IMG/VR virus record: IMGVR_UViG_3300020131_000107
Span: 1 to 44,629 of that record
Origin: a virus
Length of the DNA stretch: 44,629 nt
Strand: one strand, 5' to 3'
Shown here one piece after another: positions 4,996 to 44,119 of the stretch. Below the pieces are notes generated by a model. That model was not told the DNA's origin, did not search any database, and saw nothing but the letters and a program-made list of their open reading frames with translations. Made by a program: the position numbers and the translations under genes. Numbering within the stretch: the first letter of the stretch is position 1; each line of letters begins with the position of its first letter.

Positions 4996-5321
4996 AGCGG
5001 CAGCTCGTCGTCGTCGTCGTAATCGTGATTGCTGGCGCCGGCCGCGTTCGCGTCCGGCTGCGGCAGTTCGCGGTATTGGATCGGCCGGACCGGGCGCGAC
5101 TGTGCGGTGCTGGATTGGTCGCGCGCGATCTGTTCCGAGCAGGGCCGGATCGAATAAATCGCCGACACGCCGTAGAACTCCGTCACTTCGCCATCGGGCG
5201 CGGGGATGTCGATGCGCAGCATCTTGCCGCCGGCGGTCTCGACTTCCTTGACGCGGCCGGGGCGCGTGCGATGGCCCATCAGTTCGACGATGGCCCAACC
5301 TTCGAACGCGACTTCGCTCAT
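4992..5321 (-). CDS. phage conserved hypothetical (beta-rich, acidic tail)
   Basis: 109 residues. FEGWAIVELMGHRTRPGRVK, then EVETAGGKMLRIDIPAP and TEFYGVSAIYSIRPCSE match a small phage family I recognise by its F-E-G-W-A-h-h-E-L-M-G-H opening and F-Y-x-x-x-A-I-Y-x-I-x-P core, which is usually annotated as hypothetical. The C-terminus is an acidic run (DYDDDDELPL). It sits directly downstream of the ParB-like gene with an ATGA overlap, so the two are probably co-translated. Role unknown. Confidence 0.65.
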   Translation of the reverse strand: MSEVAFEGWAIVELMGHRTRPGRVKEVETAGGKMLRIDIPAPDGEVTEFYGVSAIYSIRPCSEQIARDQSSTAQSRPVRPIQYRELPQPDANAAGASNHDYDDDDELPL

Positions 5322-7582
5322 TGCGCGGCTCCCTTCGCAGCGGTCTTCGATTTCGGCTTCGCCGCCTTCTTCGCCGGCGGCTTGGCGAGCTTCTTCGCGG
5401 ACTTCGCCGCGCCCTTCTTCGATGCGGTGGGGGCCGCAGCTTTCGCGGCGGAAGACGCGGTCTTCGCTGCGGCCCCCTTGCCCGCATCCAACCGCCCGGG
5501 CTTACCTTTCGGCTCCCGTGGCGCGGGCAATTTCGGTTTCGGCGCTTCGTCCATGCCGCAGAGCGTGCGCAGGAGCGGCGGGACCCAGGCCGCGGTGGCG
5601 CCGCCGCCTTTGGCGTGATCGGCGACAAGAGCGGCGAGCGCGGCCTTCGTCTTGACGCCGGCGCTGTCGAGGCCGAGCTCGGCGGCGGCCGCTTCGAGCG
5701 AGGCTTTCGAATAGCCTTCGAGATAATCGGCGTCGGGGATGAAATGCGCCGCCGGATTCGCGCCGGCGAGTCGGCCGAGCAGCATCAGCGCGTCGCGTTG
5801 GTCGTCTTTGTAATCGCGCGCGGCGGTCGGCTCGATCACTTTGACGCTTTCGCCGACGCAGAAGGCGAGCAGCGCCAGCACGTCAGCCTGCGGCCAGGTC
5901 GTCATTCGCGCTTCGAGCTTGTCGATCGGCTTGCCGAGCGCGACCAGCCAGCGTTTGCGCGCCGCTGCTTGCGCATCAGCGCCGAGCAACGCGTCTTCGT
6001 CGGCGAACTCGGCGCCGGTCATCCCCTGCCCGGCGCCGCGAATCGTCAGCGCTTCGCAGGCGCTGTCGTTAAGATCAATGTCGAACACTTCCCGCGCCAA
6101 AGCGGCCGTCACCGCGATCAACGCGATGTCCGGCCGTTGCGCCAGCGCGCGGCCGACGATGGCGCTGGCGATGCGCGACGTTTTCTCGTGCGTCAGGTTC
6201 GTCATCGGCGCCTGCGGTTCGGGCTTGGCCGGTTTCGCGCTGGCGGCTTTGCCCTTCTTCGCGGCTCTGCCGGCCGGCGTGGCCGGCCGTGATTTCGGCG
6301 AGATGACGCCGCGCGTGATAGCGAGCGTGCCATCGCTGTTCAACGTGACGGCGACACCGCTCTTTTGCTTGGCCTTGTCATCGAACTCGTAGAATGAGTC
6401 CTCGATCGCTTCCCTGGCGTTGCGCAGATCGATTTCTTCGTCCTCGATCTCCGTCATGCGTTCGGCTTCTTCGTCGGTGTATTCGCCGACCTCTTCGGCG
6501 GTGTCGCGCTTTTCACAGCCGCGCTCGATCGCTTCGTACTCGGCGCGCAGCGCCTTCAGCTTGGCGTCGAGCTCTTTGACGCGGGCTTTTTCTTCGGGCG
6601 TCGGCTTGCGCGGCGTACCGAGATTTCCGTCTGCGTACTTGCCGTAGGGCATCGTGATCGCGGCGTCGACGAAGAGGAAGCCTTCGGCCTCGAGCTTGGC
6701 GGCTTCGGCTGCGAGCTTCTCCTGCGCCAGGCGCTCTGCGAGCGCAGGGTCGAGCCAGCGCGATTGCTCGGGCGCCTTGAAGAACTCCTGTTCGATCTGG
6801 CCGCCGGCGGCGAGGTAAGCTTCCTCGCCGACGAAGCGGGCGACAGCGTCGCCGGCGACGAGCGTGTCTTTCTTCAGTTCATCGCGCACGCGCCACTCGA
6901 CGTCGCGCTGCTTGCCGAGGCCCTTCCACACCTTCTCTTGCCGCGACATATGCGCAGTCGCGTAGAGCTGCGCCACATCGAGCGAGAGTTCGCCGGCGCG
7001 CAATGCTTCAAGGATCGGTTCGTGCAGGCTCGCGAGCTTCATGCGGCTCTTGACGAAGCGTTCGGTGACGCCGAACGCCTTGGCGATCTCGCTGATGTCG
7101 CGGCCTTCGATCACGGCCATGCGGTTCCAGGCGAGCGCGGCGTCGACGACGCCGAGATCGACGCGCTGAGTGTTTTCGGCGATCGACGCCGCGGTCGCGT
7201 TCGCCTGCGTCGTGATGCGCAACGGAATGGCGTCGAAATCGACTTTGAACGCCGGTGCGTCCGGCGCGACGCGCGCCGCGTCCCGGATCAGCTTCAGCGC
7301 ATTGAGGCGGCGGCGACCGCCGACGATGGCGAAGCGGCCCTCGTCATCTTCGTACGCGAGCAGCGATTGCAAGAGACCGCAGGCGATGATGTTGGCGGCG
7401 AGCTCGTCGATGTTTTCGAGCGGAGAGTCCGCGCGCGCGTTCTCCGGCGCGACGTAGAGCTTATCGAGCGGCGCTGCGCCTTCGCGGATCGGCGGCGCTT
7501 CGAACGGCGCGAGGCGCGGCGAAACTTCTATGCCGGCGATCGCGGCAGGTACGCCTTTGGGCTTGCGCGCGGCTTTAGCCAT
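5318..7582 (-). CDS. ParB/Spo0J-family nuclease-like protein with long basic C-terminus
   Basis: 754 residues from the ATG at 7580-7582, which has AAGGAAA upstream. The ParB N-terminal fold is seen with PLDKLYVAPENAR (residues 38-50), VGGRRRLNAL (87-96, the GxRR box) and AENTQR (135-140), followed by a KorB-like HTH at about 161-180 (RDISEIAKAFGVTERFVKSR). Residues about 330-410 are Glu/Lys-rich and helical. The last ~60 residues are Lys/Ala/Pro repeats like histone H1 tails, suggesting nonspecific DNA binding. ParB proteins are CTP-switch DNA clamps that work with ParA. No ParA was found nearby, so a role as an orphan regulator or DNA-coating protein is also possible. Confidence 0.85.
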   Translation of the reverse strand: MAKAARKPKGVPAAIAGIEVSPRLAPFEAPPIREGAAPLDKLYVAPENARADSPLENIDELAANIIACGLLQSLLAYEDDEGRFAIVGGRRRLNALKLIRDAARVAPDAPAFKVDFDAIPLRITTQANATAASIAENTQRVDLGVVDAALAWNRMAVIEGRDISEIAKAFGVTERFVKSRMKLASLHEPILEALRAGELSLDVAQLYATAHMSRQEKVWKGLGKQRDVEWRVRDELKKDTLVAGDAVARFVGEEAYLAAGGQIEQEFFKAPEQSRWLDPALAERLAQEKLAAEAAKLEAEGFLFVDAAITMPYGKYADGNLGTPRKPTPEEKARVKELDAKLKALRAEYEAIERGCEKRDTAEEVGEYTDEEAERMTEIEDEEIDLRNAREAIEDSFYEFDDKAKQKSGVAVTLNSDGTLAITRGVISPKSRPATPAGRAAKKGKAASAKPAKPEPQAPMTNLTHEKTSRIASAIVGRALAQRPDIALIAVTAALAREVFDIDLNDSACEALTIRGAGQGMTGAEFADEDALLGADAQAAARKRWLVALGKPIDKLEARMTTWPQADVLALLAFCVGESVKVIEPTAARDYKDDQRDALMLLGRLAGANPAAHFIPDADYLEGYSKASLEAAAAELGLDSAGVKTKAALAALVADHAKGGGATAAWVPPLLRTLCGMDEAPKPKLPAPREPKGKPGRLDAGKGAAAKTASSAAKAAAPTASKKGAAKSAKKLAKPPAKKAAKPKSKTAAKGAAQ

Positions 7583-7922
7583 TGCTGTTTCCTTTTTGCT
7601 GGAGTTCGCGCGCACGGCGCAGGATGCGCAGCGTGTTGAGCTGCGAGCGCGCGAGCTGGCCGGCGGCCTTCATGGTCTCGTGCGCGACGTCGTCATTGCT
7701 GCTGGGGCTGATGGCGCAGTCGATCTCGACCGCGAGCGCGCGCGTCAGCGCGTCGATACGGGCGTAGAGGCCGACGCCAGCGGCCATCGCCTCGGCGGTC
7801 AACGTGTGAATCAGGTGCGCCAGCGCGTCGGTTTGCGCGAACGGGTCGTTGAGGCCGGCCACGCCGGCGCGGGCTGCGCGGCGGGCGGATTCGACGGCGA
7901 GCGAGGTGACAGATTCGGGCAA
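7575..7922 (-). CDS. first gene of leftward operon, hypothetical (115 aa, TTG start)
   Basis: 115 residues, all-helical and Ala-rich, with no recognised family. The start is TTG (7920-7922) preceded on the minus strand by GGAGGGG at a 6-7 nt spacing, a strong ribosome site that compensates for the weak codon; no ATG is available upstream. It is the first gene downstream of the leftward promoter at 7954-7982, the position occupied by N in lambda. Nothing in the sequence identifies it as an antiterminator. The stop overlaps the ParB-like start by 8 nt. Confidence 0.6.
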   Translation of the reverse strand: MPESVTSLAVESARRAARAGVAGLNDPFAQTDALAHLIHTLTAEAMAAGVGLYARIDALTRALAVEIDCAISPSSNDDVAHETMKAAGQLARSQLNTLRILRRARELQQKGNSNG

Positions 7923-8838: not shown

Positions 8839-9576
8839 TCAGCGCCGAGCCGGCAGATAGCCGCCGAGCACGAGCGCGGCGATTTCGATCAGATCTTCTT
8901 CGGCCGAGTCGCTGAAATCGAGTGGCGCTTTCCATTTCGGATTGCGCGAGCGCGGCCAGAGCTCCACCTTGCGCCCCTTCTTGAAAATCTGCTTCAGCGA
9001 GCGCTCGATCAGCCCACCCTGCTCGCGCTTTCGTTCGACGACGACGAAATCATCGTGCCGCGGGGCGTAGCCAATGGCGACGGCGTCGACGACGTGCACG
9101 AACACGCCCTCGGGATAATAGAGGTCGGCTGAATCGCCGCGCACAAGCTCGAGCCATTGTGCGTCCGGCGGGAAGCCGGGGTCGGCGGTGACCGGCGGCG
9201 ACACGAGCCGTTCCTGGGCGAGGTCGTCGACCTCGATCCAGGCGCCGGCCTGCACCACGTAGCGCACCGGCAGAAGCGGACCGCTGCGGACTGGCGCGCG
9301 CTGTGGCGTGTGCTCGTCGACGCGAAGCCGACCGGCGCCGTCGCTGCCTGGCAGCTCGAGCGCGGCGCTGACGTCTTCCATCGAACGGCCAAGCGTGTTC
9401 GCCAGAGCCGCGAGCGAGTCCGTACGCAGCACTCGGGACTTACCGCGCGCAAGGTCGCGCAGCATGTCGGGACTGCCCGCCGCTACCGCAGCCGCGTGCG
9501 GGCTGGAGAATCCGGCCGCCGCGAGCATGTCGAGAAAAGCTTTCGGGTACTGAGACTTAGAACGGGCACGGGGCAT
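8839..9576 (-). CDS. CI-like repressor, HTH plus S24 peptidase domain
   Basis: 245 residues from the ATG at 9574-9576. Residues about 12-65 form an HTH-type domain (AFLDMLAAAGFSSPHAAAVA onward). The C-terminal half is S24 peptidase-like: an Ala-Gly pair at 110-111 (VVQAGAW) in the place of the self-cleavage site, LVRGDSAD with candidate nucleophile Ser149, and ERSLKQI with candidate Lys195, then LWPRSRNP. All three elements are intact, so RecA-stimulated self-cleavage and SOS induction are expected. The ribosome site GGGAG abuts the ATG, so initiation may be weak, leaderless, or from the ATG at 9610-9612 (12 residues longer). Flanking palindromes are the likely binding sites. Confidence 0.88.
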   Translation of the reverse strand: MPRARSKSQYPKAFLDMLAAAGFSSPHAAAVAAGSPDMLRDLARGKSRVLRTDSLAALANTLGRSMEDVSAALELPGSDGAGRLRVDEHTPQRAPVRSGPLLPVRYVVQAGAWIEVDDLAQERLVSPPVTADPGFPPDAQWLELVRGDSADLYYPEGVFVHVVDAVAIGYAPRHDDFVVVERKREQGGLIERSLKQIFKKGRKVELWPRSRNPKWKAPLDFSDSAEEDLIEIAALVLGGYLPARR

Positions 9577-9599
9577 CTCCCGCAATCTGCCATGGGAAC

Positions 9600-9608
9600 T
9601 TATCCACG
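9600..9608 (+). promoter_or_regulatory. DnaA-box-like site beside O_R
   Basis: TTATCCACG matches the consensus DnaA box TTATCCACA at 8 of 9 positions. It lies between the repressor start and O_R2 and overlaps GATAAG on the minus strand, a candidate -10 for repressor transcription. Bound DnaA, or the phage's own DnaA domain-IV protein, could therefore affect repressor synthesis. This link is inference. Confidence 0.35.
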
Positions 9609-9613
9609 GCATT

Positions 9614-9627
9614 TGGGGTTCGTCCCG
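9614..9627. promoter_or_regulatory. predicted operator O_R2 (weaker)
   Basis: TGGGGTTCGTCCCG keeps the GGGN-N4-TCCC core seen in the other three sites. Its centre lies 24 bp from the O_R1 centre, upstream of the PR -35 element and on the repressor side. Confidence 0.45.
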
Positions 9628-9628
9628 C

Positions 9629-9658
9629 TTGACTGACCGGGCCATTTCCCGGTTCATG
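9629..9658 (+). promoter_or_regulatory. predicted rightward early promoter PR
   Basis: TTGACT (9629-9634) followed after 18 nt by TTCATG (9653-9658) mirrors the layout of PL: TTGAC, an ACCGGG...TCCCGG palindrome, then a TT-starting -10. The -10 is weak. The implied start point near 9665 is at or next to the ATG of the first rightward gene. Confidence 0.5.
9636..9653. promoter_or_regulatory. predicted operator O_R1
   Basis: ACCGGGCCATTTCCCGGT differs from O_L1 in three of the six central positions and keeps both outer arms. It occupies the -35/-10 spacer of PR, so a bound repressor would exclude polymerase. Confidence 0.7.
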
Positions 9659-9666
9659 GCTGCAGT

Positions 9667-9966
9667 ATGCATTCCGAAGCGCCCCCTTCTTCGCCCGCGC
9701 TGGCCGCCTTTTTGGCCCGGTTCGACGCCTATTGCGAAGCCGCCGGGCGTCAGCAAGGTCCCGTTTCGCTTCAACTTTTCGGCGCATCCGACCGGGTGAG
9801 CGAGATCCGCAACACCCGCTCGGATGTCGGTGTAAAGCGGCTCGCCCAGGCGGAAGCGGAATTGTCCCGCCTCGCCGCCGAAGCCGGGATCACACTGCCC
9901 GACGCCGTCGAGGGAACCGAGTCCGAAACGGAACCGGCGCGGCCTCTCCAGGCAGGCGCCGCATGA
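9667..9966 (+). CDS. Cro-like small regulator, first rightward gene
   Basis: 99 residues. Residues about 10-66 (ALAAFLARFDAYCEAAGRQQ, then PVSLQLFGASDRVSEIRN and VKRLAQAEAELSRL) resemble compact Cro/Arc-like phage regulators that begin with FLxRxDAYCxxxG and have a recognition helix near SDRVSEIR. Position supports this: it is the first gene of the rightward operon, divergent from the repressor across O_R. No Shine-Dalgarno sequence precedes the ATG, and the predicted PR start point is within a few bases, so translation may be leaderless. The C-terminal 30 residues are polar and probably disordered. The stop overlaps the next start by ATGA. Confidence 0.65.
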   Translation: MHSEAPPSSPALAAFLARFDAYCEAAGRQQGPVSLQLFGASDRVSEIRNTRSDVGVKRLAQAEAELSRLAAEAGITLPDAVEGTESETEPARPLQAGAA

Positions 9967-12205: not shown

Positions 12206-12491
12206 CGGCGACAAGCAGCGCGTCGTCGTCTTCGCCGGCAATCGCCGGCGTGCGCTCGATTGGCTGCGCGACCGCGGCATCGATGGCGAGCGGCGCGAGG
12301 GCCGCTTCCCGGACGCAGCCATTCTTCTCGTCGTGCATCCGGACGAGCTCGATCACACGATGGCGGGGCTTGCCTTCGACCTCACCGGGTTCATCTTCGC
12401 ATCCGGTCCGCTGCGCCGTGCGATGGAAGCGCGGCGCGAGCGGTTTCACTGGCTGACCGAAGCAGAGTTTCTGCACGAGGTGCGGCGGTGA
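12198..12491 (+). CDS. hypothetical alpha/beta protein (97 aa)
   Basis: 97 residues from MCDGDKQRVVVFAGNRRRAL, with AGGGAGG a few bases upstream; it begins 8 nt inside the end of the winged-helix gene. Strands VVVFAG, AAILLVVH and TGFIFASG alternate with helices, suggesting a small Rossmann-like fold, but no nucleotide-binding motif is seen. The stop overlaps the GTG start of the prim-pol gene. No family is recognised. Confidence 0.55.
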   Translation: MCDGDKQRVVVFAGNRRRALDWLRDRGIDGERREGRFPDAAILLVVHPDELDHTMAGLAFDLTGFIFASGPLRRAMEARRERFHWLTEAEFLHEVRR

Positions 12492-13912
12492 CGACGATCT
12501 ATCACATCGCCGCCCTCGCCTATGCGGCGCGCGGCTGGGCGGTGTTTCCACTGCGCGTTCGCGACAAGCGGCCGATGATCGAACCTTCCGCGCCTGGCGC
12601 GAACGATGGCGGTTTTCACGCGGCGACGACGGATGCGGCCCAGATCGAAGCGTGGTGGACGCGGTGGCCGAACGCGAACATCGGCATGGCGACCGGCGCG
12701 GCGTCGGGCGTGTTCGTGCTCGATCTCGACGGACCGGAAGCGGAAGCGGGTTTGGCGCGTCTCGCCGGCGGCCCGCACATGGCACCGACTCTGATGCAGT
12801 ACACCGGCAAGGGCCGGCATCTTCTGTTCAAGCACGTCGAGGGCGTGCGCAATCGCGGCGGCGGCTATCTCGTCGACGGCAAGCGCGTGAAGTGCGCGGG
12901 CTTCGATGTGCGCGGCGACGGCGGCTATATCGTGCTGCCGCCGTCGATCCATCCGAGCGGGCGGCAATATGCCTGGGCCGATCGCGACACGCCGATCGCA
13001 AACGCGCCGGATTGGCTGCTGCGCGCGATCGTGCCGCCTCCCCCTAAGCCAGCCGCGGCGGCGGCGAGCTACAGCGACCGTTTCCGCGGCGGGCGCGCGA
13101 CCGCGTACGGTGAGAAGGCGCTCGACAGCGCTTGCCGGCGCATCGCGACGGCCGCGCCCGGCGTGCAGAACACGACGCTGACCAGCGAGGCCGCGGCGAT
13201 CGGCGAGCTCGTCGCCGGCGGCGAAATCGAAGCCGCGTATGCCGAACGCGCGTTGCGCGATGCGGCGGCGCAGATGAGCGAAGCCAAAGGGCCGTGGCTG
13301 GCGCAGCAGATCGAAGCGAAGATCGCCTGGGGCTTCTCTGTCGGCCAATCGCGGCCGCGCAAAGTGACGCGAGAAGATCGGCTCGGCGGTCCGCAATCGG
13401 AAACGCGCGCGGAACGGTTCGAGCGCGGTGTGCGCCAGGCGTCGCTGCGCGACGACCGCGGGCCGGTCGCGGTGATGATGAAATATCCGCCGGCGGCGGA
13501 CGCCACCCTGATCGTCGCCGATCGCGGTACAGCCGAGCTGGCGGCGCTCGCCTGGGAGGATGCGCAGGGCGGCGCCTACGGGCTCTTCGTCGTGCGCGAT
13601 CTCGGCGCGCTCGCCGGCGGCATCGCCAAGAATCGCGGCGGCTTCGACGATTGGTCGCGGCCTTCGCCCGATCCGGAACGGCCAGCGGCGACAAGCCCAT
13701 GGCGCGGGCGCGTGCTCGTCGTGCTGCCGGGCGCGCTCGAGGGCTTTCACGTCTCCAAGGGGACGAAGTGGGAGAAATGGATCAGCGCGGCGCGGCTCAC
13801 GCAAGTGATCGCGCTCTGCGTCACGCATTGGTGGAAAGCGGCCGGCGCCAGCGACGTGCAGGTGGCGACGCTGCCGGCTGATGAAGCGGAGGGTCAACGT
13901 GAAGCAGTTTGA
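12488..13912 (+). CDS. bifunctional DNA primase/polymerase (prim-pol)
   Basis: 474 residues from the GTG at 12488-12490 (GTGA overlap with the previous stop). The N-terminal prim-pol domain shows AARGWAVFPLRVRDKRP, GGFHAATTD, WPNANIGMATG, the catalytic VLDLDG (Asp79, Asp81) and GKGRHLLFKH with His111, then VRGDGGYIVLPPS. This domain synthesises primers and extends them. The C-terminal ~200 residues (ATLIVADRGTAELAALAWED onward) are not a recognised helicase; the helicase is a separate protein encoded at 15714. Splitting primase and SF3 helicase into two genes is common in phages. Confidence 0.88.
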   Translation: MTTIYHIAALAYAARGWAVFPLRVRDKRPMIEPSAPGANDGGFHAATTDAAQIEAWWTRWPNANIGMATGAASGVFVLDLDGPEAEAGLARLAGGPHMAPTLMQYTGKGRHLLFKHVEGVRNRGGGYLVDGKRVKCAGFDVRGDGGYIVLPPSIHPSGRQYAWADRDTPIANAPDWLLRAIVPPPPKPAAAAASYSDRFRGGRATAYGEKALDSACRRIATAAPGVQNTTLTSEAAAIGELVAGGEIEAAYAERALRDAAAQMSEAKGPWLAQQIEAKIAWGFSVGQSRPRKVTREDRLGGPQSETRAERFERGVRQASLRDDRGPVAVMMKYPPAADATLIVADRGTAELAALAWEDAQGGAYGLFVVRDLGALAGGIAKNRGGFDDWSRPSPDPERPAATSPWRGRVLVVLPGALEGFHVSKGTKWEKWISAARLTQVIALCVTHWWKAAGASDVQVATLPADEAEGQREAV

Positions 13913-15337: not shown

Positions 15338-15717
15338 ACGCGATCGATCATCCGGCGCACTACAACGCGCACCCGCACGGCGTCGAATGCATCGAACTCG
15401 CCGAACAGCTGCCGTTCTGCCAGGGTAATGCGGTGAAGTATCTCTGGCGCGCCGATCACAAGGGCGCGCAGCTCGAGGATTTGCAGAAAGCGCTCTGGTA
15501 CGTCGAGCGGGCGCTCGACAGCGCCGCGGCGACAGTCGTCATCGATGATGGCTTGAAGGATGACGGTCACGACCCGTTTGCCCGACTTTTGGCGCGCGCG
15601 TGCGCCGGCTTCGCGCCGGACGTGGCGCAAGCGATCCGCGCGATCGCCGAGGGTCACCTCAACATCGCCGCCATCGCGATCCGGTTGCTATTGGCAAAAG
15701 CGGAGCGCGCCGGTTGA
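15334..15717 (+). CDS. DUF3310-family nucleotide-kinase-like protein
   Basis: 127 residues from the GTG at 15334 (GTGA overlap). The N-terminal 70 residues match DUF3310: IDHPAHYNAHPHGVECIELA, then GNAVKYLWRADHKGAQLEDL and QKALWYVERAL. The family is common in phage replication clusters and sometimes called nucleotide kinase without proof. Residues about 85-127 form an extra helical extension (FARLLARACAGFAPDVAQAI). The stop overlaps the TTG start of the helicase gene. Confidence 0.82.
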   Translation: MNAIDHPAHYNAHPHGVECIELAEQLPFCQGNAVKYLWRADHKGAQLEDLQKALWYVERALDSAAATVVIDDGLKDDGHDPFARLLARACAGFAPDVAQAIRAIAEGHLNIAAIAIRLLLAKAERAG

Positions 15718-17324
15718 CGGCGCGCCCTGCCCTCACGCTCGTCAGCGGCGGCGGCCCGGCGGTCGACGATCGGGCGCTGGCCGATTATGGCCGCGACGAT
15801 ATCGGCAACGCCGAGCGGCTGCGCGCGCGGCACGGGGCGGATTTGCGCCGCACGCCGGGCCTCGGCGTCCTGGTGTTCGACGGCCAGCGCTGGCGCATCG
15901 ATGACGACCAGGCGCACGCGCTGCGGCGCGCGCAGGAAACGGCGCGGGCGATCCGCAAGGAAGCCGACGCCATCCGCGCCGAAGCCGAGGGCGTCGAACC
16001 GGATCGGCGCAAGTCGCTTCTGGCGCGCGCCGAATCGCACATGAAGTGGGCGACGGCTTCGGCGAACTCGTCGCGCCTGAACGCGATGCTGGCGCAGGCC
16101 TGGCCGCACCTCATGGTGACGCACGAGGAGTGGAATGCACGGCCGCGGCTGTTCAATGTCACGAACGGCACGCTCGAGCTCTCGCCGGAAGAGGTGACGC
16201 TTCGAAAACACGCGCGCGAAGACTACATCACGCACATGGCCGGCGTCGCCTACGAGCCCGACGCCGAAGCGCCGGAATTTCGCGCGTTTCTCGATCGCGT
16301 GCTGCCGCCGTCGCCGGCGAGCGATGCGAGCGACGTGCGCTGCGTTTCCACGGCGGACGGCCTCGACCGATCCCTGCAGCATTTCGTGCGCCGCTGCTTG
16401 GGCGTCTGTCTGATCGATAGCGTGCGCGACCAGGCCATGATCGTGTTTCACGGCGGCGGCGCGAACGGCAAGTCGACGTTGCTCAACGCGGTGTCGCGCG
16501 TCCTGGGCGATTACGCGATGACGGCGGCGGTGCAGTCGCTGCTCTACAACGATCGCCAATCCGGAAGCGGCCCTTCGCCCGATATCGCCCGCCTCGCCGA
16601 AAAGCCGCGCCTGGTGCGCGTGTCCGAACCGGAACCGGGCGCGCGGCTTTCCGAAGGCGGCGTCAAGTCGATGACGGGCGGCGAGCCGATCGTGGCGCGC
16701 AAGCTGCAGGAAGCGCCGATCGAGTTCAGCCCGAATTTCAAGATCGTGCTCTCGTGCAATAACCGGCCCTCGATCCGCGGCGGCGATGACGGGATCTGGC
16801 GCCGCATTCTCTTGGTGCCGTGGAAAGTGCAGATCCCGGCCGAAGAGCAGCGCGAAAAAGGCCCGGCGCTCGAAGCGGCGCTGGAACGCGAGGCGCCGGG
16901 GATTTTGAACTGGCTGCTTGACGGGCTCGCCGATTATTTCGAGCGCGGCGGCCTTAGCCCCCCTGACGAGGTGCAGGAAGAGACGCTCGCCTATCGCACC
17001 GACAGCGACGTGATCGGGCGCTTCATCGCCGAGTGCTGCACCAAGGCCGAAGGCGCGCGCACCGAGTTCGGCGAGCTCTATGACGGCTTCAAGCTCTGGT
17101 CGCGCGACGAAGGCATGAAGGAGCCGCTGTCGTCGAACATGGTCGGCCGCCGCCTCACCGACCGCGGCTTCGGCCGCGAGAAGAGCGACGGCTTCGTCTA
17201 TCGCACGGGCCTCGAGCTCTTGCCGGAATGGCAGCTGATGGTGCGCACCGGCCAGCAGAAGAAGAAGGACAAGGAAGCGGCGGGCGCTGATTACGCGGCG
17301 GCGAAGGACGGGGGCGGCGAATGA
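15714..17324 (+). CDS. D5/P4-type SF3 helicase
   Basis: 536 residues. The start is taken as TTG (15714-15716), sharing TTGA with the previous stop; no ATG or GTG precedes the conserved region closely. The D5 N-terminal domain runs from about 20 to 210. The SF3 core has Walker A GGGANGKSTLLN (from residue 247), RLAEKPRLVRVSEPEPG as the Walker B region, KSMTGGEPIVARKL and the sensor segment FKIVLSCNNRPSIRGGDDGI with WRRILLVPW. The C-terminal domain (about 430-510) is winged-helix-like. It is a ring ATPase that unwinds the origin together with the prim-pol. An iteron-like array lies 320 nt downstream. Confidence 0.9.
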   Translation: MTARPALTLVSGGGPAVDDRALADYGRDDIGNAERLRARHGADLRRTPGLGVLVFDGQRWRIDDDQAHALRRAQETARAIRKEADAIRAEAEGVEPDRRKSLLARAESHMKWATASANSSRLNAMLAQAWPHLMVTHEEWNARPRLFNVTNGTLELSPEEVTLRKHAREDYITHMAGVAYEPDAEAPEFRAFLDRVLPPSPASDASDVRCVSTADGLDRSLQHFVRRCLGVCLIDSVRDQAMIVFHGGGANGKSTLLNAVSRVLGDYAMTAAVQSLLYNDRQSGSGPSPDIARLAEKPRLVRVSEPEPGARLSEGGVKSMTGGEPIVARKLQEAPIEFSPNFKIVLSCNNRPSIRGGDDGIWRRILLVPWKVQIPAEEQREKGPALEAALEREAPGILNWLLDGLADYFERGGLSPPDEVQEETLAYRTDSDVIGRFIAECCTKAEGARTEFGELYDGFKLWSRDEGMKEPLSSNMVGRRLTDRGFGREKSDGFVYRTGLELLPEWQLMVRTGQQKKKDKEAAGADYAAAKDGGGE

Positions 17325-17629
17325 TCGGCGCGGTCGTCATAGGCGAACGTCCGGAAAGCGCGAACGAAACGGGGTGCGGCAAACGCTGGCGCAATCTCTT
17401 CCGCGTCTCGTATCCGCTCAATCGCGGCGTAGCCGTCATCGTCAACGGGCTGCCCGCGCCGAGCGGGTATGAATGGTTGGATGCGCTCGAATTTCCTTGC
17501 CGCGAGAGCGCCGAGGAGGCCGGGCAGATCGCGGCGCGGACGTGGAATGCGGAGTTGGCGGGACGTGGCGCGGGCTTCATTTCGGTCGAGTGGCGTGAGG
17601 CCGTGCTGGTCGCCGGAGGTGAAGCATGA
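17321..17629 (+). CDS. hypothetical protein (102 aa)
   Basis: 102 residues, beta-rich (LFRVSYPLNRGVAVIVNGLP then ISVEWREAVLVAGG) with a central helix. It overlaps the helicase stop by ATGA. No family is recognised. It ends where the repeat array begins. Confidence 0.55.
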   Translation: MIGAVVIGERPESANETGCGKRWRNLFRVSYPLNRGVAVIVNGLPAPSGYEWLDALEFPCRESAEEAGQIAARTWNAELAGRGAGFISVEWREAVLVAGGEA

Positions 17630-17850
17630 GCGCGTGCGCCGCCCTTACAGTGACGATCAGTGACGAAGTGACAATTCGTCCTGCGCGCCTGTTCGCGCGC
17701 CGTTCTGTTTTCCGCGCCGGATCGTCCCTTTCGTCACTGATCGTCACTGCCGGAAAGCGTTGGCGGCCAAGGGCGCGAACCGAAAGTGACGAAAGTGACG
17801 ATGACCCCCTACGCACTCGCGCGCGCGTGCGCACGCGCTTTGCTGGCTAA
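17626..17850 (+). CDS. doubtful small ORF overlying the iteron-like repeats
   Basis: 74 codons. In favour: the ATG overlaps the previous stop by ATGA and GGAGGTG lies 5-6 nt upstream. Against: the sequence runs through the repeat octamers, is rich in Ser/Arg/Thr without a clear fold, and codon choice is dictated by the repeats. It may be translated without a selected function. Confidence 0.3.
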   Translation: MSACAALTVTISDEVTIRPARLFARRSVFRAGSSLSSLIVTAGKRWRPRARTESDESDDDPLRTRARVRTRFAG

Positions 17851-17893
17851 CTCTCGATATTCGTCACTTTTGTCACTTGTCACTCTCGTCACT
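17648..17893. repeat. iteron-like array of AGTGACGA octamers, candidate replication origin
   Basis: Eleven copies of AGTGAC(G/A)A or its complement lie in 246 bp. Forward copies start at 17649, 17659, 17667, 17785 and 17794; reverse copies at 17731, 17741, 17861, 17870, 17877 and 17886. Spacing inside groups is 7-10 bp. 17648-17667 and 17730-17749 are a perfect 20-bp inverted repeat. An alternating CG/CA stretch lies at about 17815-17840. The array sits just after the primase and helicase genes, the usual place of a phage or plasmid origin. A binding array for a regulator is the alternative. Confidence 0.65.
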
Positions 17894-17902
17894 GGATCAA
17901 GC

Positions 17903-18691
17903 ATGAAAAAAACAGCTGCAGCACCAGTGGTCGCGTACGATCCAGACCGGGCGACGGCGCGCCTCAGGGGCGCGCTGGCGGGCGCGGGCGTGGAGACGGC
18001 CGATGTCTTGGCTGAGGTCGAGTCCGCGGCCAAGGCGGCGAATGACGCGGGGCTGAAGCCGAATAAACAGCAGCGCAAGGTGAAACAGGCGGTGCGTCGC
18101 GCGGTGGCGGATATCGCGCAGCCGATGAACGAAGCCGAGCGCCTGGGCGCGGCGCTGCCGCCGGTGCGGGCGCTGTTGCAGACGAGCTGGCGGGTCGAGC
18201 AAGTCGACGTGCCGCCGGGCGAGGAATTCATCGAAGCCCTGCCGGCGTATGTCGTGAAGTTTGATGGCAACGCGCCGTTGGAGCGGCTGCGGCGCGCGGG
18301 CGTGTTGGAGGATCATCAGGTGCGCGCGGGCGAGAAAGTGTGCGCGCTCTACCTGGCGGCCGTGAAGCCGCCGAAGGTGACCGGCTCGTATGATGGCATT
18401 ATCGCGCAAGGCGGGGCTGCCCCGCGGCCGTGGGTGGAGGTCGGCAGTGATGCGTGGCAATCGCTGAATGAGGCGCTCGCAGGGCTGCTGCCGAATGAAG
18501 CGGAAGCGGTGATGGAAGTCGCGGTGTACGAAACGACCATTGAAACGCTGGGCCGGCGGCGTTCGCTGGTGCGGTTTCAGGAGCGGCGAAAAGCTGAAGC
18601 GGGCGTGGTGCAGCTTCTTTCTTGTGGACTCACGCGGCTCGCGATGCATTGGGGGCTTGTCGCGGGGGGACCCCGCGATGTACCGAAATAG
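17903..18691 (+). CDS. late early-region regulator candidate (262 aa)
   Basis: 262 residues from the ATG at 17903 (MKKTAAAPVVAYDPD); an earlier in-frame ATG at 17786 would read through the repeat array and is less likely. The middle is helical and basic (NKQQRKVKQAVRRAVADIAQ). The C-terminal 75 residues (AWQSLNEALAGLLPNEAEAV, then YETTIETLGRRRSLVRFQER and LLSCGLTRLAMHWGL) resemble the HTH-like segment of DUF6456-type proteins. It is the last early gene, directly before an intrinsic terminator and the late operon, where lambda has Q. A late-activation or antitermination role is inferred from position only. Confidence 0.55.
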   Translation: MKKTAAAPVVAYDPDRATARLRGALAGAGVETADVLAEVESAAKAANDAGLKPNKQQRKVKQAVRRAVADIAQPMNEAERLGAALPPVRALLQTSWRVEQVDVPPGEEFIEALPAYVVKFDGNAPLERLRRAGVLEDHQVRAGEKVCALYLAAVKPPKVTGSYDGIIAQGGAAPRPWVEVGSDAWQSLNEALAGLLPNEAEAVMEVAVYETTIETLGRRRSLVRFQERRKAEAGVVQLLSCGLTRLAMHWGLVAGGPRDVPK

Positions 18692-18717
18692 GCATGGGCG
18701 CGAATCGCGTCTGACAC

Positions 18718-18750
18718 GGCCTCGCTGGCGACAGCGGGGCCGTTTCGTTT
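18718..18750 (+). terminator. intrinsic terminator at end of early operon
   Basis: GGCCTCGCTG (18718-18727), loop GCGA, CAGCGGGGCC (18732-18741): a 10-bp stem with one G-U pair, followed by GTTTCGTTT. It separates the early genes from the late block, so late expression needs readthrough or a new promoter. Confidence 0.7.
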
Positions 18751-18776
18751 GCCGCCAACCACAAAGGAGAAACGAC

Positions 18777-18782
18777 ATGTAA
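18777..18782 (+). other. start-stop codon pair (ATGTAA) at the usual start of the next gene
   Basis: AAAGGAG lies seven bases before an ATG that is followed at once by TAA, in frame with the ATG at 18792. The ribosome site belongs to this ATG, so initiation here would terminate after one codon. Confidence 0.75.
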
Positions 18783-18791
18783 GTTGTCGCG

Positions 18792-19031
18792 ATGTTCAAG
18801 TGCGCTGAGAAGACCGAGCGCGACAATGGCGGGCTTAGCGATCCGAAGAAGATCGTCGATGTGCGGCTCGTGCCGACGTATGACGAAACGGGTCCGAACA
18901 AGACGTGGTCGAAGTGGACGCCTGCGGGCGAAGTGAAGATGACGATCACGAACGATGCCGCGGCTGATGCGTTCGAGGTCGGCGTCGACTATCGGCTCAC
19001 GTTCACGCGCGAACAGCTGCCGAAGGAATGA
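18792..19031 (+). CDS. small phage protein with disrupted start (79 aa)
   Basis: 79 codons from the ATG at 18792. The frame continues upstream as GTT GTC GCG to TAA and ATG at 18777-18782, where the only good ribosome site lies. I recognise a phage family that begins M-K-V-x-A-x-F-x-C, followed by VxLxPVY...NKxxSKxTPxGxxxxTI and a terminal YxxxFTxxE. This gene shows the same order (VVAMFKCAEK, VRLVPTYDE, NKTWSKWTPAGEVKMTITND, DYRLTFTRE). The TAA is thus probably a one-base change from AAA (Lys). Expression now would rely on reinitiation 9 nt downstream. A sequencing error is possible. Confidence 0.6.
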   Translation: MFKCAEKTERDNGGLSDPKKIVDVRLVPTYDETGPNKTWSKWTPAGEVKMTITNDAAADAFEVGVDYRLTFTREQLPKE

Positions 19032-39385: not shown

Positions 39386-41980
39386 ATGGCGGGGATCGTG
39401 AAGAGCGCGGGCGCGTTGGCGTTCCGCGATTACGTCACTGACGGCGTGCCGGGCTCCGGCAAGAAGAAAGTCTCGAAAGCCGATGTGCGCCGTGTGTTCG
39501 CGCTGGTCGAGAAGTTCGCGCAGATCAAAGCCGTTTCGATCACGACGACGGTGCAGCCGTCATCGCCGGCGGACGGCGCGATCTACATCCTGCCAAGCGG
39601 CCGCAGCGGCGCGCAGTGGGGCGCGTTCGCGATCGGCGCCCTCGCCCTCTACGAGACCGGCCGCGGCTGGAGCGAAGTGCTGCCCGACGACGGCTGGACA
39701 GCGTTCGTCACCGATACGCAGCGGCGCTACGAGTGGAAGGACAGCGCCTGGGGCTGGAGCGATCCGCTTGGCGCGAGCACGATCGACACCGATGCGACGT
39801 TCGCGGCCAACAGCGACGCGAAGGTGCCGTCGCAAAAGGCGGTGAAGACGGCGCTCGACGCAAAGCTGGCGGCGAGCGCGATCGACACGGATGCTGCGCT
39901 CGGCGCCAACAGCAACGCGCTGGTCCCCTCGCAGGCGGCGGTCAAGGCCTACATCGACGGCCTGCTCGCGGCGAATGACGCGGCCGTTTACAAGGGCGCG
40001 ATCGACGCGTCGGCCAATCCGAACTATCCGGCCGCCAGCGCCGGCCACACCTACCGCATCTCTGTCGCCGGCAAGATCGGCGGCGCCGCCGGGCCCAGCG
40101 TGCAAGTCGGCGACATTGCGCTCTGCCACGTCGACGGCTCGGCCGCCGGCGATCACGCGACCGTCGGCGCGAACTGGAATATCATCCAGACCAATATCGA
40201 CGGCGCCGTGGTCGGGCCCGCAAGCGCGACCGACGGGCACATCGCCCAGTTCGACGGCGCGACCGGCAAGCTCTTGAAGGGCGGCCTGCAGCTCGACAGC
40301 GACACGACGCTCGCCGCCAATAGCAATGAGCGCGTCGCATCGCAGGCGGCGGTGAAGGCGTATGTCGACGGCGGGCTGGCTGGGAAGGCGCCGCTGGCTT
40401 CGCCGGCGCTGACCGGCACACCGACCGCGCCGACGCCGGCGCCGGGGACGAACACGACGCAGCTCGCCAACACCGCTTTCGTGACGGCCGCGATCGACGC
40501 GCTGATCGCGGCGGCGCCAGGCGCGCTGAACACGCTCGACGAGCTCGCCGCCGCACTCGGCGACGACGCTAATTTCGCCGCGACCGTGACCGCGGCGCTG
40601 GCGGCGAAGGCGCCGCTCGCCTCGCCGGCGCTGACGGGTTCGCCGACCGCGCCTACGCCGGGCGAGCACGACAACGACACCAGTATCGCGACCTCCGCCT
40701 ATGTGATGACGGCGATCAAGAACGCCTTCGGCATGACGCCGGAGATGTTCGGGGCCGTCGGCAACGGCGTCGCGGACGACACGACTGCGCTGACCAATTG
40801 GCTGAACGCCGTCATGGCGTCGTCGCGCCGGGTCGGTTTCCTCGGCTATAAATCCTATCGCATCACCGGGGCGCTGCCACAGATCAACGTGCCGGGCGTG
40901 CGCATTTATGGCGCCGGCCGTTCATCCAGCCACGACGTCGGCTCCGCCCAGGGCTCGATCATACTCTGCGCCGGGACCGCGGGGTACACGGCGCTGACGG
41001 TCGCGCCGACCTCGGGCGCCGGCAATCAGCGTTTGGACGGAATTGAACTCATCGGCTTCACGGTCAACGCCAACAGCGTGGCCGCCGTCGGCGTTGCGCT
41101 GCTCAGCTGCTTCAACTGGCGCGCCGAGGTTTCGGTGCACGAAGCGACGAGCAGCGGACTGCTTCTCGGCGTGGTGGCTTCGCTTGGCGAAGCGCGGGAC
41201 ACGCAACGCGGTCTGCTGCGCTTCTCCGGCCGCCAGGCGCTCAATGCGGCGCCGGCGCTGCGTCTCACCGGCGACACCGGCGCGAACACGTCGAAGAACA
41301 TCTTCCTCGAAATCGACATCCTGCATCGCGACGAAATCGGCATCATCGAGGAAAACGCCGACAACAATCACTGGCTCGACGTGCGCTGCAGCCGCGCCAG
41401 CGGCGGCAGCGCGGCGTACGGCTGGGAGTGCCGCGGCGGCGCGACCGAGCCGCAATCGGTTCGCCACGAAATCATCTACAAGTATTCAGGCACCGTGCCG
41501 CTCATCGCTCGCGGCACGGAGAGCTACACGGTCGCCTCGCAAGGCATCGACATCCGTTACAACGACGTCTCGAACGGGACGCCTGATCCGGTCGAAGGGA
41601 CCGGCGCGATCATCTTCGGCGATCATTGGCGGCAATCGACACCAACGCCGGTCGCCGGTGTCGGCGCGCTGACGGCGGCGACGAGCGAGCTGCGCTGGCG
41701 GCGGCGGCGGAAGCAAGTCGAGTTTCAGATCGCGATAACGATTACGACGAACGGAACGGGAGCGTCCTATATCAGCGTGCCGATGCCGGCGACGTCAGCG
41801 AACGGGACCGGCTTCGACGCCGTGTTCTGCGGCAAGGAAGTGCAGGCGACGGGCAGCATTCTCTCGGCGCGAATCGCGCCGAACACGTCGACCCTGGTCA
41901 TCCAGACCTTCAATGGCGGCTATCCCGGCGCAGACGGCTACAAGCTCGTGACGGCTGGCGCTTACGCGGCGGCGGCGTGA
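39386..41980 (+). CDS. tail fibre/tailspike with repeat stalk and pectate-lyase-like beta-helix
   Basis: 864 residues. The N-terminal region to about 125 is a probable attachment domain. Then come repeats of the type D-T/S-D-x-x-x-x-A-N-S-N-x-x-V-x-S-Q-x-A-V-K-x-Y-x-D (about 130-330) and two copies of APLASPALTGxPTAPTP, both typical of fibre shafts. From about 450, EMFGAVGNGVADDTTALTNW begins a pectate-lyase-3-like right-handed beta-helix, as in capsule-degrading tailspikes. The C-terminus is a small beta domain. It probably binds or cleaves a surface polysaccharide. Confidence 0.82.
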   Translation: MAGIVKSAGALAFRDYVTDGVPGSGKKKVSKADVRRVFALVEKFAQIKAVSITTTVQPSSPADGAIYILPSGRSGAQWGAFAIGALALYETGRGWSEVLPDDGWTAFVTDTQRRYEWKDSAWGWSDPLGASTIDTDATFAANSDAKVPSQKAVKTALDAKLAASAIDTDAALGANSNALVPSQAAVKAYIDGLLAANDAAVYKGAIDASANPNYPAASAGHTYRISVAGKIGGAAGPSVQVGDIALCHVDGSAAGDHATVGANWNIIQTNIDGAVVGPASATDGHIAQFDGATGKLLKGGLQLDSDTTLAANSNERVASQAAVKAYVDGGLAGKAPLASPALTGTPTAPTPAPGTNTTQLANTAFVTAAIDALIAAAPGALNTLDELAAALGDDANFAATVTAALAAKAPLASPALTGSPTAPTPGEHDNDTSIATSAYVMTAIKNAFGMTPEMFGAVGNGVADDTTALTNWLNAVMASSRRVGFLGYKSYRITGALPQINVPGVRIYGAGRSSSHDVGSAQGSIILCAGTAGYTALTVAPTSGAGNQRLDGIELIGFTVNANSVAAVGVALLSCFNWRAEVSVHEATSSGLLLGVVASLGEARDTQRGLLRFSGRQALNAAPALRLTGDTGANTSKNIFLEIDILHRDEIGIIEENADNNHWLDVRCSRASGGSAAYGWECRGGATEPQSVRHEIIYKYSGTVPLIARGTESYTVASQGIDIRYNDVSNGTPDPVEGTGAIIFGDHWRQSTPTPVAGVGALTAATSELRWRRRRKQVEFQIAITITTNGTGASYISVPMPATSANGTGFDAVFCGKEVQATGSILSARIAPNTSTLVIQTFNGGYPGADGYKLVTAGAYAAAA

Positions 41981-43870: not shown

Positions 43871-44119
43871 ATGCTCGGCTCCGTCATCGACTGGGCCAAG
43901 TTCGCCCTGCTCGCGCTCTCCCTGGTCGACAAGCTCGTCGATTGGGTTGAGCGCGAGCAGCTGCGGGGCGAGCTCCAGCGCGAGAATTTCCGCAAGCAAG
44001 TGGAGAAGCACCATGCCGACGTCGCCGCCGCGCGCGCGATTCGCGAGCGCACTCGCGCTGAGCTCGATGCTGCTCCTGACAAGCTGCGTGAGCATCCCGA
44101 CGCGCATTTTCGGGATTGA
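43871..44119 (+). CDS. inner-membrane spanin-like protein (Rz position)
   Basis: 82 residues. An N-terminal membrane helix (VIDWAKFALLALSLVDKLVD) is followed by a charged coiled coil (REQLRGELQRENFRKQVEKH onward). The lipoprotein gene at 44013 starts inside it in another frame, the classical Rz/Rz1 arrangement. The i-spanin would join the o-spanin across the periplasm and fuse the membranes at lysis. Shorter than lambda Rz (153). Confidence 0.72.
   Translation: MLGSVIDWAKFALLALSLVDKLVDWVEREQLRGELQRENFRKQVEKHHADVAAARAIRERTRAELDAAPDKLREHPDAHFRD

Follow-up and report, generated by a model that had tools for sequence, protein, structure and literature searches.

An alternating AGTGAC iteron array downstream of a D5/SF3 helicase gene as a probable replication origin in a phage genome

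In phage P4, priming and unwinding are combined in a single protein, alpha, and the annotated crr, which lies directly 3' of the alpha gene, consists of two 120-bp repeats whose octamers are ordered ++ -- + at 9 bp. The annotated origin of P4 is separate from crr, and the attP arms form another annotated repeat in the P4 record. The origin of Streptococcus phage Sfi21 is reportedly located near a P4-type primase, and for most sequenced phages no annotated origin is known. In SaPI/PICI elements, the origin is located 3' of the initiator gene, with two iteron sets around an AT-rich region (PMC6092414). The Cch2 protein of SCCmec, a helicase of the D5_N type, uses its C-terminal domain to bind direct repeats immediately 3' of its own gene; there are three iterons, AAGTG is required for helicase activity, the inverted repeats are dispensable for binding, and the family of the SaPI5 primase-helicase has its origin just 3' of the gene as well (PMC7581432). 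The Prim-Pol/SF3/winged-helix replication gene of pRN1 is followed on its 3' side by a stem-loop/inverted structure of roughly 100 nt, which is described as a stem-loop without iterons (PMC4234260). In a study of mycobacterial prophage RepA origins, the repeated sequences were not identified (PMC7157519).

The DNA analyzed in this study (hereafter, the window) is an entire IMG/VR record of 44629 bases, in which an array of short repeats occupies 17648-17893. We conclude that this array very probably serves replication as a cis-acting site and is most likely the origin of phage replication, which would be bound by the D5/SF3 helicase encoded upstream. The conclusion is based on the placement of such elements behind helicase genes in a gene-blind and a gene-first search, on a repeat hexamer that tracks the helicase tree, and on the conservation of the iterons; the least stable DNA at 17847, the longest alternating tract and the match of the helicase to the SaPI5 fold point the same way. 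The helicase gene is found at 15600..17324 on the + strand (Pfam D5_N, 5.3e-29; DUF5906, 3.7e-6; Pox_D5, 5e-4), and a Prim-Pol (archaeo-eukaryotic primase/polymerase) gene at 12260..13912 on the same strand (Pfam PF09250, E 8.6e-46) is likely the primase of the replicon. These matches confirm the first-pass annotation, which had placed the array after prim-pol and SF3 helicase genes. The helicase stop is separated from the array start by 324 bp and one small ORF (17321-17629), which counts against the origin reading; in most relatives the element is much closer to the initiator gene. On the 3' side, a DUF6456 gene (17903..18691, + strand; PF20057, E 3.9e-8) begins with ATG 17903, 10 bp past the last iteron, and is followed by the genes of the terminase small and large subunits and the portal. 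The portal, terminase, capsid E and decoration protein genes are all present in the window, which in this respect differs from the SaPI/PICI satellites and represents a full phage. Searches of the phage collection with window 17300-18800 (blastn) and with the DUF6456 protein (tblastn) gave no match.

The octamer AGTGAC(G/A)A occurs 11 times in the 44,629-base record, and 11/11 copies fall within 17649-17893; in dinucleotide shuffles of the whole record, the mean was 1.30 and the maximum 5, and 11 copies were reached in 0/100. The copies are ordered +++ -- ++ ----, i.e., iterons 1-3 (17649..17674, + strand), 4-5 (17731..17748, - strand), 6-7 (17785..17801, + strand) and 8-11 (17861..17893, - strand), and their start-to-start spacings are 10 and 8, 10, 9, and 9, 7 and 9 in the successive clusters. 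This recount agrees exactly with the first-pass description of an 11-copy alternating array (3 forward, 2 reverse, 2 forward, 4 reverse) with 7-10 bp spacing and a perfect 20-bp inverted repeat. An equal octamer density elsewhere in the genome had been named as grounds for rejecting the array, and the genome-wide count returned zero octamers beyond it. The 246-base array, with repeats in both orientations, is composed of two units. Unit A (17648..17749) contains 3 forward and 2 reverse iterons and the perfect 20-bp inverted repeat (arms 17648-17667 and 17730-17749), and unit B (17784..17893) contains 2 forward and 4 reverse iterons, which flank an alternating tract, and an 18-bp inverted repeat of 94% (arms 17784-17801 and 17861-17878). 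In both units the iteron sets face each other across a spacer. The arms of the window units can pair (z -4.8), which is a likeness to pRN1 and phage BIP-1; the iterons are a difference from pRN1 as it is described above. No Rfam match was obtained in the window.

Like P4, the window has two units of facing octamers 3' of the helicase gene, though at the distance given above, and P4 alpha matches the profile of the window helicase at 3.1e-28. The P4 type 1 repeat is GGTGAACA, which differs from the AGTGACRA of the window; the facing gap is about 35 bp in P4 (4330 to 4366) and 59-64 in the window, and the Prim-Pol and helicase of the window are encoded by separate genes, unlike P4 alpha. The two-unit layout resembles the annotated crr, and an alternative is that the array is only a helper site, at which the helicase binds while initiation takes place at a second position in the genome. 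P4 itself has an annotated origin (9086-9809) apart from crr, and Bacteriophage 4A (L314, LN889993) carries two widely separated units at 12421-12524 and 43882-43985. We nevertheless consider a helper site unlikely and favor an origin, because no second AGTGAC cluster was found in the record, which is possibly incomplete and in which 6 of the 17 AGTGAC hexamers lie outside the array and are dispersed. In addition, the single 3' site of PICIs is an autonomous origin (PMC6092414). Integrase arm sites were considered as a further alternative for the array; the attP arms of P4 are, as noted above, a repeat of their own.

The likeness of the window to SaPI/PICI elements lies in the facing iteron sets across a spacer 3' of an initiator helicase and in the helicase itself. 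The top VIA-align match of the predicted helicase model (mean pLDDT 89.3) is the SaPI5 primase-helicase (7ola; Z 29.8, rmsd 4.5, 387 aligned, residues 56-547), with which poxvirus D5-type and AsfvPrimPol structures tie within 1, and the helicase sequence profile A3 also reaches SaPI5 Rep (7ola) at E 5.9e-13. The D5_N and DUF5906 matches, the profile and the fold together identify a SaPI Rep-type initiator helicase, the DNA-binding part of which is predicted. In the model, residues 471-540 form a C-terminal helix-strand-helix-helix-strand-strand (H-E-H-H-E-E) segment. We propose that this segment, which is encoded at 17010..17219 (+ strand) and coincides in part with a weak Pox_D5 match (residues 468-520), is winged-helix-like and constitutes a putative iteron-binding domain; a recognition-helix signature was sought by eye in the C-terminal alignment, with nothing defensible found. 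Besides its full-phage setting, the window differs from SaPI/PICI elements in its two units, its CG-rich alternating core and the intervening small gene. It differs from SCCmec Cch2 in having 11 sites in facing sets rather than three iterons; AGTG is present in 11/11 window sites and AAGTG in 5/11. By analogy, the window element may act like the P4 crr, SaPI/PICI, Cch2 and pRN1 systems, from which it differs in its iteron sequence, its doubled units (relative to PICIs), its CG-rich alternating core and its full-phage setting. A search of the openly accessible literature found no description of AGTGAC arrays or of such a layout in full phages.

The nearest IMG/VR relative by helicase, L008/L167 (81% identity), keeps 9 octamers of units A and B at identical relative positions, and the gene between its helicase and array is a different one. 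The window and L167 differ at 5/87 iteron bases and at 37/158 other array bases (Fisher p 3e-4). A third relative, L154, has both units in unchanged order, and its array is within about 130 bp of the helicase gene. The unit A spacer of the window also contains a terminator-like 6-bp GC hairpin with a T-rich tail (17683..17700, + strand), one of 2 such matches compared with 0.8 expected; in L167 the hairpin is retained but the T run is not.

The ORF at 17626..17850 (+ strand), which the first-pass annotation regarded as dubious, does overlie the array, and the repeats could be explained as codons that recur by chance in a constrained small protein gene. The window, L167 and L154 all keep the frame open from an ATGA-type start; the ATGA overlaps the upstream gene in the first two and the helicase stop in L154. 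However, pN/pS between the window and L167 is 0.90 for this ORF, compared with 0.19 for the DUF6456 gene and 0.05 for the helicase (140 codons); its differences are spread evenly over the codon positions (15, 19 and 14 of 75), and no Pfam or PHROG family matched it. We therefore regard this explanation as very improbable. On sequence comparison a constrained protein is doubtful, and to that extent the ORF deserves its label; the frame kept open in L167 and L154 would still allow translation. It had also been stated that relatives conserving the protein and not the repeats would contradict the importance of the array; in L167 the repeats are better conserved than the ORF.

The facing unit recurs in other genomes. 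A gene-blind pattern consisting of a single array unit, with no reference to genes, matched 57 IMG/VR stretches and, in genome contigs from a wide range of phyla, another 43; the matches are redundant, many coming from one Acinetobacter group, and the genome matches L191, L195, L196 and L205 look like one sequence. When helicases were called with a profile built from the window helicase, 37/57 viral matches followed a D5/SF3 helicase gene on its 3' side at -1 to 407 bp, compared with 4.9% of randomly chosen positions within these loci, and 18/43 matches in genome contigs adjoined a helicase, compared with 4.4% of positions. The reversed-hexamer control matched 4 stretches, of which 2 are AGTGAC elements again and 2 (L230 and L231) are another tandem array. 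Against the origin reading, 20/57 viral and 25/43 genome matches are not beside a D5 helicase by this profile. Among the 20 viral misses, three lie behind helicase-like genes of other kinds (VapE-like in L134, DUF5906 in L151 and PrimPol-DUF927-Cch_HTH in L170), the sequence ends at the element in L146 and L183, and several others belong to a group of actinophage-like genomes that carry two units per contig at a distance from the helicase. The 25 genome misses include a separate kind with AGTGACTAA repeats and no helicase nearby. The exact unit was not found in phages Percival, Yang and RcapNL.

In the gene-first search, a facing hexamer unit was found within 600 bp 3' of the helicase at 27/80 IMG/VR loci, compared with 0/80 shuffled loci and 0/80 upstream regions. 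With wider spacing limits, the unit was present 3' of 33/77 helicase genes, with 0 in the shuffles and 0 upstream; the 44/77 loci without a unit at this hexamer setting speak against the origin reading. A looser 5-mer setting gave 42/77 positive loci, but 8/77 were also positive 5' of the genes. A close helicase was encoded by 6/385 alphaproteobacterial genomes, and the unit was found at 5/6 of these loci, the sixth locus comprising only 176 bp. The hexamers vary across helicase loci and include AGGGAG, TAGGGA, GTGGCG, TGGAGG and others. The facing-unit element is apparently widespread in phages.

In Mycobacterium phage Fionnbharth, the primase and the next gene are separated by a GGGACAT unit (record 48045-48170), and the position of this unit bears on the alternative that the array is a packaging site (cos/pac) bound by the terminase small subunit. 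The array lies between replication and terminase genes in the window, as does the corresponding site in Acinetobacter phage 4316, and AGGGAC-type repeats near the record ends of RcapNL (L186) flank an annotated 26-nt 3' cohesive overhang (40464-40489 and 1-26). This annotation conflicts with PMC8601537, in which RcapNL is listed as circularly permuted. The Fionnbharth unit closely follows the primase on its 3' side, ~9.9 kb inward of the nearer end of the linear 58076 bp record, and because of this position a packaging function is set aside as extremely improbable.

An origin bound by the neighboring helicase is also consistent with the distribution of the repeat sequence among helicase lineages. 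On a tree of 59 of the 63 non-redundant helicases, which was built by a quick method with long branches flagged and in which the AGTGAC rows were motif-found, AGTGAC versus other hexamers requires 8 changes, compared with 20.0 for shuffled assignments (0/500 as low). Such tracking is expected if the helicase reads the repeat. The window clade (3) is nested in a well supported group of 24, the remaining 21 rows of which carry other hexamers, and AGTGAC therefore arose or was retained on more than one occasion. The same tracking, together with the recurrence of the architecture behind helicase genes across many phyla, argues against a large operator, on which a repressor or the helicase would control the downstream DUF6456 and packaging genes. 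The distance of only 10 bp from the last iteron to the DUF6456 start codon would suit an operator, facing direct repeats are possible as operators, and dual use of sites as origin and operator by initiators is common; the promoter scan, however, found 0 sigma-70-like promoters in 17200-18100. We consider an operator function quite improbable. The first-pass annotation had left the choice between an origin with iterons and an operator, and the comparative evidence favors the former.

Unit B has further features of interest for the origin reading. Its spacer contains an alternating purine-pyrimidine tract of 21 nt (17818..17838; shuffle p 2e-4), the longest in the record. In the DNA-stability profile that had been suggested as a check, the minimum of the whole record for 50-bp as well as for 100-bp stretches (17847..17946, nearest-neighbor profile) begins at 17847, at the right-hand margin of the unit B spacer, and this region is a candidate for unwinding. 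A GC-skew plot, suggested at the same time, showed no switch at the array, the skew being mostly positive along the record, which counts against an origin. Two other features of the window do so as well: unit A has no long alternating tract, and the spacers are not AT-rich (AT 0.36 in unit B and 0.34 in unit A, with 0.35 in the unit A flanks), unlike those of SaPI/PICI origins. The longest alternating purine-pyrimidine run per spacer, measured in 63 units, has a median of 10, compared with a shuffled mean of 6.4, and is significant at p <0.01 in 17 and at p <0.05 in 25; the AT content of the spacer exceeds that of the flank in 52/63 units.

In the mechanism that we propose, the C-terminal domain of the helicase would bind the AGTGAC iterons, and the two facing iteron sets of each unit would load helicase rings around the spacer. 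Opening of the DNA may then start within or next to the alternating purine-pyrimidine tract and the unstable stretch at 17847, after which the helicase would unwind outward and the phage Prim-Pol would prime synthesis. Unit B may correspond to the core origin and unit A to a second helicase-binding unit, comparable to the doubled crr of phage P4.

A broader and more tentative idea, which we regard as somewhat less probable than its negation, is that a large proportion of the tailed phages with SF3-type initiators rely on a single origin module. Such a module would consist of 9-bp-phased iterons facing over a 45-95 bp spacer, often with an alternating (Z-DNA-prone) tract where opening starts, and separate helicase lineages, and even different initiator families (D5, VapE-like and DUF927/Cch), would have arrived at AGTGAC repeatedly, which would imply a readable recognition code between winged helix and iteron. 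If the origin reading holds, the presence of a D5/SF3 initiator would suffice for calling a phage origin by sequence alone, the PICI/P4 origin type would be a common property of phages, and natural helicase-iteron pairs would provide material for the recognition code and for orthogonal replicons. The recurring alternating tract would make the melting site of such origins directly testable.

Several additional observations were made during the searches. An initial pattern, AGTGACRAN{0,3}AGTGACRA, gave at least 120 matches, was judged from a size estimate to match mostly by chance and was rejected; of its loci, the analysis covered L123, which a later scan matched again. Two distant AGTGAC units that are not behind a helicase occur in actinophage-like genomes, namely Bacteriophage 4A and the pairs L130/L140, L138/L143, L147/L182 and L160/L166; in L140 and L143, one of the units follows a serine recombinase gene by 65 and 108 bp, respectively. 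Inverted arrays of the AGTGACTAAAGTGACTAAAG form, with no D5 helicase nearby, are present in L187, L188, L197, L199, L207, L208, L228 and L229, which are metagenome-assembled or environmental bacterial contigs, and seemingly represent another repeat class. In L230 (629-989) and L231 (1750-2110), a facing CAGTGA unit of ~100 bp is repeated in three tandem copies without a helicase match. In the window itself, the - strand at 5318-7615 encodes a large protein whose ParB-like N-terminal and HTH matches are weak and fall below the Pfam cut-offs.
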